Of a stretch of DNA of 31,181 nucleotides, positions 2,936-31,181 are shown in pieces (within the stretch, counting starts at the first letter, position 1; each line of letters starts with the position of its first letter). Below the pieces are notes generated by a model, which did not search any database, was not told the DNA's origin, and saw only the letters and a program-made list of their open reading frames with translations. This DNA comes from a virus. The stretch is from IMG/VR virus record IMGVR_UViG_3300025127_000147, positions 1 through 31,181 of that record, one strand, 5' to 3'. A program made the position numbers and the translations under genes.

Positions 2936-5900
2936 CTATCTTCCACTACCTCTTCCGTTATTACTACCACCTCTGCTTCCACCGCCGCTTGTTTTATCTT
3001 CATCACCACCTTTTGTTCCTGAACCACCTTTTTTAGTTTCTTTACCACCACCCTCACTATCGCTTGGTTTGCCTGAAAAATCTTTGTTTCCAGCTGGCTC
3101 CACATTTCCTACTGTTTTAGGTGCGCCAGATCCACCATAACCACCTTTGGTTGTTGTTGTTTTTGTTCCTGTTTCCTTTTCATATGCATCTATCACCTTT
3201 TCAGATTCTTCTTTCGTTAAAGCTCCACCCTTTAGTTCCACTGCTTTTGCTACAGCATCATCCTTTGATACAGCTTTTTTAGCTATATCATCGGCTTTAC
3301 TTCTACCGCCCCTAACCTTTTTCTCTTTTGTTTTAAATTTAGCAACAGTTCCGACTCCTGTGTCTAATGTTGATTCACCAGGCTCTTTTGTCACAAGCTT
3401 TGTTGGAGAGGTTAATCTGATTTGAACAGGTGGAGTTCCATCTGTGGTAGTTTTTATAGTTTGCTTACAACCATCATAAAATAAATTAGTAAAAGCTTGA
3501 CTCTCAAACGCTAAATTATCAATATCAACATTATGAAACGATGATGAATTAAATACCCCACTACTAGCATTTTCCGATGTTGAAAAGAATTTTCTTAGTT
3601 TTTGATTATATCCCCTAATTCTAGATCCACTTATTATTGGCTGTAAAACTTCATTATAGTGAGTGTCTCCAAATGACATTGTTACGTCTGAATATTCACC
3701 ATCCTGCTTTAACCTTTGCCAAATGGATAACTCTGCTTGTCTATCAGCTATCTCTGTTATGCTTCCTGTAACATCTAAAAACTGACCGCTAGCAGATACA
3801 TAATGAGAACCTGTTTCATAAGTAAACACTCCTATTCTGCCATCATAAGCTGTAACGCTATCAACTATGTTTCTACCATGATTGTAAGAACCTGTAATAA
3901 TTATGAAATCTGTAGAAACATCGATTGAAGCGCTATAGTGATGTTCTGTGCTTATCGGTGTTTTTCCGATAACCACTTTTGGTCTCTCAAAAATATTTGG
4001 TTCAACTAAAATACCTAAATCAGGTTTAGCTCTAGCAGGTATCATTTTTCTAACCTGTGGGAACAATGATTGATCGTAATATTTTATTAGTCTTATATAA
4101 TCCCAAAAATTATTTGGAGAGGAATATTTTTGCCAATAGTTATTAGATACTCCTTTTAAACCACGATAATCTAATTCTTGTAAATCTCTTGGATCACCTA
4201 AAAAATTATCAAAATTTAAATTAGCAACCGATTCTATGATGTCATTATTAATGACATCTGTTGGAGCAAAGAAAACACCAACTTTATTTGAGTCAATCGG
4301 AGCTTGGTCGTGTGCGCTGAATGTTGCTCTATTTTTACGATGTAAATTTGCAAACGGAAATATTTTATTTTCTTCTATTCTAACCTTATTAGTAACCCTA
4401 CGCAATCCACCAATGCTAGGTATATTAGTTTTAGTTTCATCAACCACATTTGCAAAAAAGTTTCCTGTAAATCCTATCGCACCGCCTGGATTTGATGTGG
4501 TTGTATTTGCGCTGGTATCACGAATACTAGGCGAAGAGCTTAAATCTTTATTATCATCAAATGAATATCTTAAAATTAAATTATTATAAGATGATGATAC
4601 AGTATTTCCATCATAAGCTTTTGGATTACCTATATGATTTTTAAATGAGCCTGTATTTAAAACCTCAGTCCAATGTCTATATTCCATAAGTGAACCACTA
4701 AATTGAACACCCACACCCGAAACAGTAGAACTACCGCCTATATAAATTTTTCCATCATTTTCCCAATTTTGATTATAAGAGGAGGATGCAGCTATATCTG
4801 TATTCATAACTGATGTAGAATATAAATGCAATTTACTTCTACTAGCATCGTACTTACCAACAGATAACTTAAATGATTGAGACACATTTCTGTTATCGCT
4901 TCCGGATGTTCTCTGAATCATAACTGAATGAAATTCATTATCATATACAGGTAGATTAGAAGATGATATCTCCTTCAATCCATCCGAACCGCTTATTTGA
5001 AATGCTACAAAACCATAATCATCTGTAGAACCATTATCCTTTAATCTTACATAAAAGCTAGAAGATGCATTTGGTGAAATTGGTTTTTTTTCAATTAATA
5101 TTTGGTTTCTACTAGTAGGAGATTTAAATCTAAACTCAATAGTATCAGGCTTTCTATTCGTTGAAGAATCATCAGTCCAACTAGCTGACACATACTGTGA
5201 ACTTCTAAATCCTAAAGATTTTGTAAATTTTCTTTTTATTTCAAATTGTGGAGTAGCATCATCTGGCAAATTAGGACCACCATACTCTTTTACTCTTAAA
5301 ATAGTTGATGGTATACCATATGCACTTATCAATCCTTTTATTGCCCTGATAGTTCCTTTATTTTTTAAAAAGAAAGGCATGTTGTTTATTATACGACTCC
5401 AAATTTCTCTTGATATATCACGCTCACTTACAGAGGAATAATTAGAAAAAGCAGATCCAGTAACCTCTTTCCCTAAAGCGTATCTAGCTAAACTAACTCT
5501 ATCTTTTCCATCATCTAATTTCCATCCTAAAGATTTACCAACAGAGTATAATAAATCTTTTGATATACCCTCATTTAACTTTTCACGTCTATCGTAAGTA
5601 TCCCCTATAGCTTTTATGTAAATCCAAATATTATCAAAGTGATGGCCCATCATATCAATCATAGTTAAATAAGTCTGATTAGAAGAATCTACTTTTATAT
5701 GATTTGGTAATAAATTACTAATTTTATTAAGATTTTCTGTGTCATATAAAGATGCACTTGTTATTTGATTATTATACCAAGTTGTGGCTAAAGATGATGT
5801 GGTATGAGCTAAAATATAATTATCATTTACAGCACCACTACCTCCTGTTTTAGGCCATGCATTATCGTGAAAAACTCCGATAGAACTACTAACAAAAGAT

Positions 5901-26786: not shown

Positions 26787-27263
26787 TTATGATATTTCCA
26801 CCAAGTTCTTCTTAGGTAGAGTTGGCTCTGCCTTAGGAATTTCGATTGAAAGAATACCCTCTTTGAAATTAGCTTTGACATTTTCACCATCAAGCAACTC
26901 ACCTAAAGTGAATGAGCGTTTGAATGATGATTGCTTTAACTCCCTACGAAGCACCTTAGCTTTAGTCTCATCAAATATTCCGTGATGCTTTTCACCAGCT
27001 ATGGTAAGAACACCATCCTCAACTTCTATGTTGATATCCTTTTTATCTAATCCAGGAATCTCAGCTATGATACCAACCTTATCATCAAACTCATAGACAT
27101 TTACTTTTGGATATGCTGAATTACCAAATGGATTTACACCAACAGTTTCATTGATTTGTGGAAATGATGATGAGATAATTTCATCAAACATTTTATCAAA
27201 CGGGGTTAGAAAAGAATCCCTATCGATTACAGGGAATGAATTACGAACAACTAGTTTAGTCAT
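26787..27263 (-). CDS. Small heat shock protein, Hsp20 family (158 aa)
   Basis: This protein has the alpha-crystallin domain of Hsp20 chaperones: YPKVNVYEFDDKVGIIAEIP, GLDKKDINIEVEDGVLTIAG and SFKRSFTLGELLDGENVKAN, with GILSIEIPK at the end. An N-terminal arm begins MTKLVVRNSFPVIDRDSF, and a short C-terminal tail has LPKKNLVEIS. T4-like marine phages commonly carry such a gene. Hsp20 holds unfolding proteins for refolding by Hsp70 systems. The neighbouring J-domain protein supports a phage chaperone module. The ATG has AGGAG upstream, and a 160-base gap holds AT-rich control sites. Confidence 0.95.
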   Translation of the reverse strand: MTKLVVRNSFPVIDRDSFLTPFDKMFDEIISSSFPQINETVGVNPFGNSAYPKVNVYEFDDKVGIIAEIPGLDKKDINIEVEDGVLTIAGEKHHGIFDETKAKVLRRELKQSSFKRSFTLGELLDGENVKANFKEGILSIEIPKAEPTLPKKNLVEIS

Positions 27264-30380: not shown

Positions 30381-30557
30381 TTAGTCACCTGAAGTTGTGG
30401 TAGCTTCAAAGTCATAGTCTACTATCCACTTTTCAGTTTTCTTTTTAGGTGGTCTAATAAGTTCTAATATCTTAGCCACTGAGTGTCTAAGCTCTTTAAC
30501 TTCATTAGCTATTTTATCTAATCCATGAACTACTTTTTGTTCTACTATTTTAGCCAT
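30381..30557 (-). CDS. Small hypothetical protein (58 aa)
   Basis: This ORF starts with ATG at 30557 and encodes 58 residues beginning MAKIVEQKVVHGLDKIANEV. An N-terminal amphipathic helix of about 33 residues is followed by a basic RPPKKKTEKW segment and an acidic end. It overlaps the previous gene (stop at 30550) by 8 bases, and its end supplies the ribosome binding site of the next gene. Function is unknown; translational coupling is evident. Confidence 0.6.
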   Translation of the reverse strand: MAKIVEQKVVHGLDKIANEVKELRHSVAKILELIRPPKKKTEKWIVDYDFEATTTSGD

Positions 30558-30717
30558 CCTTAACCTCTCTTAATTTACCTAAACCACCACCACCAACTAC
30601 TTTAAGATAATCCTCAGCATCACTTTTATTTTCAGCTAAAAATGTGTAACCTTGATCGGTTGTCCATTTTTTATAGTGGTCAAACTGACCAGCTTTTTTT
30701 ATTACTTTCTTAGCCAC
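30550..30717 (-). CDS. Small hypothetical protein with GTG start (55 aa)
   Basis: GTG at 30717 is preceded by GGAGG in the nine-base gap after the selenoprotein-like gene. The 55-residue product begins MAKKVIKKAGQFDHYKKWTT (first residue from GTG). It then has a helical DAEDYLKVVGGGGLGKLREV. No family is recognised. It overlaps the following gene by eight bases. Small and basic, so it may bind nucleic acid, but there is no direct evidence. Confidence 0.6.
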   Translation of the reverse strand: MAKKVIKKAGQFDHYKKWTTDQGYTFLAENKSDAEDYLKVVGGGGLGKLREVKDG

Positions 30718-30726
30718 AAGGCCTCC

Positions 30727-30960
30727 TTATGTTATCCATTCATAATCGTTGAGTATATCCTCAACTTCGTTACTATTTGGGAATCTACCCAAATCTTTTT
30801 TACTGAATATTAGACTATTGTTAAGTTTAACTTCAAACACTCCGCCTGAACTTTTTATTAACTTGGCTTCAATACCAAATTGTTTTTGTATTGATTCTCT
30901 TAAACTAAGAGCTTTTGGTTCATAGTTTCACTGCATACAATATTCGATACTGATATTCAT
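30727..30960 (-). CDS. SelW/Rdx-family selenoprotein candidate with in-frame UGA (77 aa)
   Basis: From ATG 30960 the frame reads MNISIEYCMQ, then TGA at 30930-30928, then NYEPKALSLRESIQKQFGIE and onward to a TAA at 30729-30727. With UGA as selenocysteine the motif is C8-M-Q-U11, exactly the CxxU redox site of Rdx (SelW/SelT/SelH) thioredoxin-like proteins. Downstream SGGVFEVKLNN and IFSKKDLGRFP match family features (GGVFEV-type strand, SKK...G.FP). A 6-bp hairpin (30897-30911) begins 16 nt after UGA. UGA ends other genes here. A stop-broken gene or sequencing error remains possible, but both halves look intact. The role is likely thiol redox exchange. GGAAG lies upstream; the neighbour's stop abuts the ATG. 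Confidence 0.75.
30897..30911 (-). promoter_or_regulatory. Candidate bacterial SECIS hairpin
   Basis: The RNA from 30911 to 30897 reads CTCTTA-GTT-TAAGAG, a perfect 6-bp stem, or a 5-bp stem with loop AGTTT. It begins 16 nt after the UGA and the apical loop lies about 22 nt after it. Bacterial SECIS elements have a short apical loop with a G in the first two loop positions, and lie 16 to 37 nt after UGA; the loop here fits, including a GU. The stem is A-U rich and coincides with coding codons. Confidence 0.55.
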
Positions 30961-31181
30961 TTAACTTCCAAATACTTTTTTCTTTTCACCGTGATATTCG
31001 TAAGCATGTCCATTTTCTTTCAATAATTCGTTTACTGACTTATCATGCCCTTTAACAAATAACTCTCCAAGCACACGACCATACTTACCCTTACCATGTG
31101 AAATAATACTAAACTTACCATCATCAGAATTTTCCAAAAGGTCTTTAACATAAGCCTTAGCAGCTAAACCTTTTTCTTTTT
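30961..31181 (-). CDS. SNase-like nuclease, C-terminal part (5' end beyond window)
   Basis: The frame is open from the right edge to TAA at 30963-30961, giving 73 residues. The sequence contains GLAAKAYVKDLLENS, GKYGRVLGELFVKGHDKSVN and ELLKENGHAYEYHGEKK. This order matches the C-terminal half of staphylococcal nuclease-fold proteins. There, KYGR carries the catalytic Arg equivalent to R87 and VNE..L...G.A precedes the final helix. Catalytic residues of the N-terminal half (R35 and E43 equivalents) lie outside the window. It is likely an endonuclease acting on DNA or RNA. Its stop is directly next to the selenoprotein gene start. Confidence 0.8.
   Translation of the reverse strand, partial: KEKGLAAKAYVKDLLENSDDGKFSIISHGKGKYGRVLGELFVKGHDKSVNELLKENGHAYEYHGEKKKVFGS

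Follow-up and report, generated by a model that had tools for sequence, protein, structure and literature searches.

Does a phage gene that is interrupted by an in-frame TGA encode a selenoprotein, and if so, whose machinery would decode it? The question is raised by a small reading frame in a viral DNA stretch of 31,181 nucleotides (IMG/VR record IMGVR_UViG_3300025127_000147), which is referred to here as the window. A preliminary description, made from the sequence alone, had proposed that this frame is a phage selenoprotein of the SelW/Rdx type with a SECIS-like hairpin, a proposal which is supported by the conservation of the TGA, the covariation in the hairpin and the alignment of residue 11. 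We put the probability at about 0.93 that the locus is a functional phage-borne SelW (Rdx) selenoprotein gene, decoded by the host and likely to yield a thiol/selenol reductant; the incorporation of selenocysteine (Sec), the supply of the machinery by the host and the redox role are what we infer from the evidence presented below. The features are listed in Table 1.

Table 1. Features of the selW locus in the window, and loci of the second TGA-containing family
Feature	Position	Strand	Basis
SelW/Rdx selenoprotein gene (predicted), 77 aa, CMQU motif; ATG at 30960, TAA at 30727	30727..30960	(-)	translation with TGA read as U; Pfam Rdx PF10262, E=1.6e-19
In-frame TGA, putative selenocysteine codon, residue 11	30928..30930	(-)	TGA at the same codon in 20/20 other contigs with homologues
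SECIS hairpin (predicted), 6-bp stem CUCUUA/UAAGAG, loop GUU	30897..30911	(-)	folding; compensatory changes in 12 phage and 27 phage plus bacterial sequences
C-terminal end of staphylococcal-nuclease-like protein, upstream, directly adjoining selW	30961..31179	(-)	homologue L001:9358-9855 is Pfam SNase
Short downstream ORF, GTG start, AAGGAGG ahead of the start	30550..30717	(-)	read from the sequence
Trx-like W-U-x-x-C family	L001, L114, L127, L131, L146, L147, L149, L150, L153, L154, L159, L160, L163, L165		

When the TGA is translated as U, the frame reads MNISIEYCMQ-U-NYEPKALSLRESIQKQFGIEAKLIKSSGGVFEVKLNNSLIFSKKDLGRFPNSNEVEDILNDYEWIT, and the continuous Rdx-family protein of 77 residues ending at a TAA that had been described is borne out by the Pfam profile, which spans the TGA and is matched over positions 1-73 of 74. 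The codon was also correctly placed inside a redox motif: it occupies the second Cys position of CxxC, giving CxxU (C-M-Q-U), and residue 11 aligns with the second, redox-active Cys in the solved Rdx proteins 2ljk, 2fa8 and 3dex. Both C8 and codon 11 are invariant in all phage SelW homologues. An AlphaFold model based on 10 phage rows (pLDDT 89.6) has the thioredoxin-like Rdx fold in this predicted structure, and the best solved structures in Foldseek are the SelW-related 2fa8, 2obk, 2p0g and 2ojl (TM 0.84-0.89), with mouse SelW (2npb) ranking after these bacterial structures. The phage protein shares both fold and active-site position with 2fa8 (Agrobacterium), 2p0g (Vibrio) and 2npb, but 2fa8 represents the Cys-type bacterial subfamily (YCTQCNWLLRA), whereas phage SelW has the NYEPRAL Sec-type sequence which is common to bacterial Sec-SelW. 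The phage SelW family had no match in PHROG.

IMG/VR was searched for relatives by protein and by DNA-pattern scans, which gave 20 further contigs with a selW homologue (21 including the window). These represent 12 distinct phage types, with the window as one and L001 and L002 counted together, and the 11 others are 45-75% identical to the window protein. The downstream conservation that was to be checked in relatives was found in all of them: each of the 20 contigs keeps the TGA at the codon for residue 11, followed by an intact frame. The third base of this codon was left free in the pattern scan of viral contigs, and none of its Rdx matches had TGT, TGC or TGG, all of them having TGA, so that the search for Cys (TGY) homologues in related phages gave none; the remaining matches were non-Rdx proteins. 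That the phage genes found are Sec-only, and never Cys, points to specific selection for Sec chemistry in phage SelW. Downstream of the TGA, dN is 0.14 and dS is 1.8 between the window and L001, which argues that this part of the frame is translated and selected, and indicates, as far as sequence comparison goes, that purifying selection acts past the TGA. A tblastn search of the INPHARED phages returned no SelW match, so cultured phages supply no host, and a scan of genome contigs for relatives gave a Cys-type one only.

With regard to the hairpin, folding gives exactly the six pairs that had been noted 16 nt after the TGA (CUCUUA-GUU-UAAGAG), with the loop, which has an apical G, beginning 22 nt after the UGA. 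According to PMC13188914, the bacterial SECIS (bSECIS) model has a loop of 3-9 nt, a stem of 4-16 bp, a G within the first two positions of the loop and a loop located 16-37 nt after the UGA, and the window hairpin lies within these published limits with its 6-bp stem, GUU loop and distance of 22 nt. Its folding energy is unremarkable (z -0.96, no better than many shuffles) and was dropped as evidence, and because energy alone is unremarkable the significance of the hairpin rests on comparison, for which covariation was used instead. Across the 12 phage sequences, 97% of the cells of the six-pair stem are paired, with one unpaired position each in L004 and L020. There are eight two-sided changes in the stem (U-A to C-G, C-G to U-A and U-A to G-C) versus 2.5 in shuffles, and neither this number nor the covariation score of the stem was reached in any of the 500 shuffles, a count which is not to be read as a probability since the shuffle control leaves the relatedness of the sequences in. 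Controls with a slid register, which keep the relatedness, were far below the true register. Between the window and L001 the stem changes from CTT/TTA to CTC/TTG, a compensatory change that is silent on either side. AGT encodes the loop Ser in all 11 genes that have one there, whereas it makes up about 25% of the Ser codons across these genomes, and CTC, a rare Leu codon (3% of Leu), occurs repeatedly in the stem.

We compared the phage genes with those of bacteria. An Rdx match was present in 82 of 398 Pseudomonadota genomes, 81 of them without a stop; the matches that were read contain Cys, mostly of the CxxC-WLLRAAW type. The only Pseudomonadota genome with a TGA in its Rdx match, G160, was also the only one to have SelB among the five genomes checked. 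A search with the G160 protein in 385 genomes of the same class gave 27 Sec-type SelW genes, all 27 with the TGA (one, L079, has an additional TAA within the match, which was taken as the terminal stop). The 25 genes that could be compared have a hairpin, typically CCCUC-CGUGC-GAGGG, at the same distance after the TGA, and when 15 bacterial sequences were added to the phage set (27 in total) the two-sided changes were again above those in all shuffles. Judged from these alignments, the SECIS is common to phage selW and bacterial Sec-SelW. A tree built on 77 columns separates the sampled bacterial Sec genes from the Cys genes, each as a group of its own, and places the phage genes outside both, with the branching within the phage group weakly resolved.

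The genomic setting of selW differs between the phage records. The window carries endolysin and baseplate genes, and the gene for the staphylococcal-nuclease-like protein is likewise upstream of selW in L001 and L002. In L004 the gene sits amid baseplate genes, in L017 and L018 it is beside SSB, UvsX and exonuclease genes, with similar neighbours in L011, L015 and L023, and the L020 record has tail sheath and DNA polymerase genes. In most records checked the neighbours are thus phage tail, SSB, UvsX, DNA-polymerase or similar genes, and that a conserved gene is found at such different places in the genome suggests that selW has been relocated or gained repeatedly.

A scan for TGA codons at redox motifs also revealed, in the L001 record, a second frame (L001:3740-4861, TGA at 3944-3946) reading FATW-U-GPCQSEAP around the TGA. 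When read through, it scores above the Pfam cut-offs for AhpC-TSA, Redoxin, Thioredoxin and Dockerin, and just under the cut-off for a T9SS sorting tail. Related W-U-P-S-C frames are present in the SelW-carrying records G003, G016 and G018, making four such records with L001, so several phages appear to hold two selenoproteins, going by these reading frames. A scan for the Trx-like motif with the third base free gave 18 matches, 16 of which are this Trx-like protein, all with TGA (12 distinct types); the family also occurs in records other than those carrying SelW. Its members have a W-U-[GP]-[PS]-C motif, a signal-peptide-like N-terminus, dockerin repeats and in many cases a T9SS-type tail. 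They share a hairpin, CGGA-GGC-UCCG, whose loop lies 17 nt past the UGA; it is exact in 9 of the 12 types and present with a U-G pair in two more, leaving L165 as the only type without it. There were no two-sided changes in this hairpin among the 12 types because it is almost invariant, and it persists even though the codons that it imposes are rare (CCG is about 10% of Pro codons, GAG about 25% of Glu codons). Further readthrough candidates in the phage records had no convincing domain or conservation when judged by eye.

These comparisons bear on three other explanations. A single fragmentary record, taken alone, would have left room for a sequencing or assembly error, or for a Cys-type SelW gene in decay that had acquired a nonsense mutation, but such an origin has practically no probability left: the same codon is TGA in 20 other contigs, which with the window make up 12 divergent genes, with the frame intact behind it, dN is far below dS in that part, and no Cys version was found in the viral contigs. 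It is also very improbable that the contigs are bacterial fragments misclassified as viral and the gene an ordinary bacterial selW. Bacterial Sec-SelW genes do exist, and the T9SS-type tail and dockerin repeats of the second protein look host-derived, but the baseplate, endolysin, SSB, UvsX, tail-sheath and DNA-polymerase genes around selW are those of phages, and the sampled bacterial Sec-SelW group is apart from the phage genes.

The UGA could also be read as another amino acid, by a suppressor tRNA, a reassigned code or stochastic readthrough, with the hairpin unrelated to it. This would agree with the phage records searched, in which SelA, SelB, SelD and tRNA-Sec were not found, although this absence is only suggestive because the records are probably fragments. 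It is very unlikely on other grounds. TGA retains its stop function in the window, where 3 of the 30 genes end in it, as had been pointed out originally, and the selW genes of L001 and L002 themselves terminate in TGA, so that one gene would use the same codon both for Sec and for termination. ARAGORN lists no TCA-anticodon tRNA, either in the window or in the pieces that were examined. Moreover, the TGA is located exactly at the Sec site of SelW and is followed by a SECIS common to bacterial Sec-SelW, and in the Trx-like family it is likewise at the thioredoxin active-site position. Decoding as selenocysteine is well supported by these sequence features, and with no selA, selB, selC or selD found in the phage records searched, the dependence on a host that had been proposed is consistent with the result, and decoding would use the host machinery. 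Some phage records gave tRNA-Sec matches under the gathering score, and these fall on, or in the midst of, ordinary tRNAs predicted by ARAGORN. With respect to the host itself, the T9SS-type tails and a protein in the G015 record (L108:4538-7330) that has domains of the carboxypeptidase-regulatory and TonB plug types suggest a member of the FCB group, as a lead; the contigs are presumably marine, going by IMG sample numbers.

Delivery of Sec-tRNA at UGA by SelB is an established bacterial mechanism. During infection the host would translate the phage selW mRNA, its SelB with Sec-tRNA(Sec) would recognise the hairpin just past the UGA, and selenocysteine would be inserted at residue 11, giving a thioredoxin-fold protein of 77 residues with a CxxU active site. 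The product would most likely be a small reductant of thiols or selenols in the cytosol of the infected cell, a role that is suggested by the fold, the CxxU motif, the proximity to replication genes and a class II ribonucleotide reductase encoded about 5 kb from selW in G016; it may recycle oxidised enzymes, ribonucleotide reductase for example, or protect against peroxide or metal stress. Another possibility is a link with Fe-S or sulfur/selenium metabolism, from the neighbours in two records: in L020 (737-4511 of a 216 kb record) selW adjoins genes for cysteine desulfurase, a NifU-like protein, an FeS-assembly protein (PF01883) and glutamine synthetase, possibly a cassette for Fe-S or sulfur/selenium supply, and in L016 an IscA/ErpA-like Fe-S protein gene (637-1023) is located about 2.5 kb upstream of selW.

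The poxvirus glutathione peroxidase is a selenoprotein of an animal virus, from a eukaryotic system with the SECIS in the 3'-UTR. There, as proposed here, a viral genome borrows the Sec decoding of its host, but no bacteriophage is involved. The closest known proteins are the bacterial and marine SelW-like selenoproteins, which (PMC1088965, PMC2398784) have the Rdx fold, CxxU and a SECIS-type hairpin after the UGA as in phage SelW; the phage genes differ in being located in phage genomes and in grouping separately from the bacterial Sec-SelW clade as sampled. The GOS survey counts 427 Sec and 56 Cys members, which fits the finding of Sec alone in the phage genes, and a figure of 11.3% of selenoprotein genes comes from a later marine survey (PMC9402790). 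Similarly, the second phage family resembles the marine Trx-like UxxC selenoproteins described in PMC2398784, a likeness of motif (W-U-[GP]-[PS]-C) and not of directly compared sequences, but it is carried by phages, and its members have an N-terminus resembling a signal peptide, along with dockerin repeats and, in many cases, a T9SS-type tail.

Term searches gave no mention of phages in connection with SelW-like genes in PMC1088965 and PMC2398784, and none of phage or virus in a 2026 review of prokaryotic selenoproteomes (PMC13188914). The later marine survey, in the passages found, treats viral genes for other trace elements and none for SelW (PMC9402790). No earlier report of bacteriophage selenoproteins was found in open-access full text. 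Selenoproteins thus appear to be so far undescribed in bacteriophages, and a known protein and a known decoding mechanism seem to occur in a setting not reported before. Gene callers for which UGA is nothing but a stop cut such phage genes short. Compared with the preliminary description, there is now a conserved phage family, a SECIS common with bacterial Sec-SelW and a second putative selenoprotein in several of the same phages. If this is right, selenium availability and Sec decoding would be a host factor for these phages, phage genomes would need UGA-aware annotation, and marine selenoprotein surveys should separate viral from cellular genes. We give even odds to the broader view that a widespread group of aquatic phages carries a small selenoproteome dependent on host Sec decoding, consisting of a cytosolic SelW and a secreted Trx-like UxxC protein; if true, phage infection would be tied to the selenium supply of the host, and of the SelW-like genes, which metagenomes rank as the most abundant family of marine selenoproteins, a notable part would be viral.

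Finally, two minor observations concern the surroundings of the gene. The window also has a gene for an Hsp20-type small heat shock protein (26787-27263). In L011 and L021 the selW motif is not preceded by an ATG, and the frame has a GTG or TTG start immediately behind the upstream gene's in-frame stop and a conserved extra N-terminus (ASTT.NI.VT), which suggests that selW is translationally coupled to the upstream gene in these two phages.
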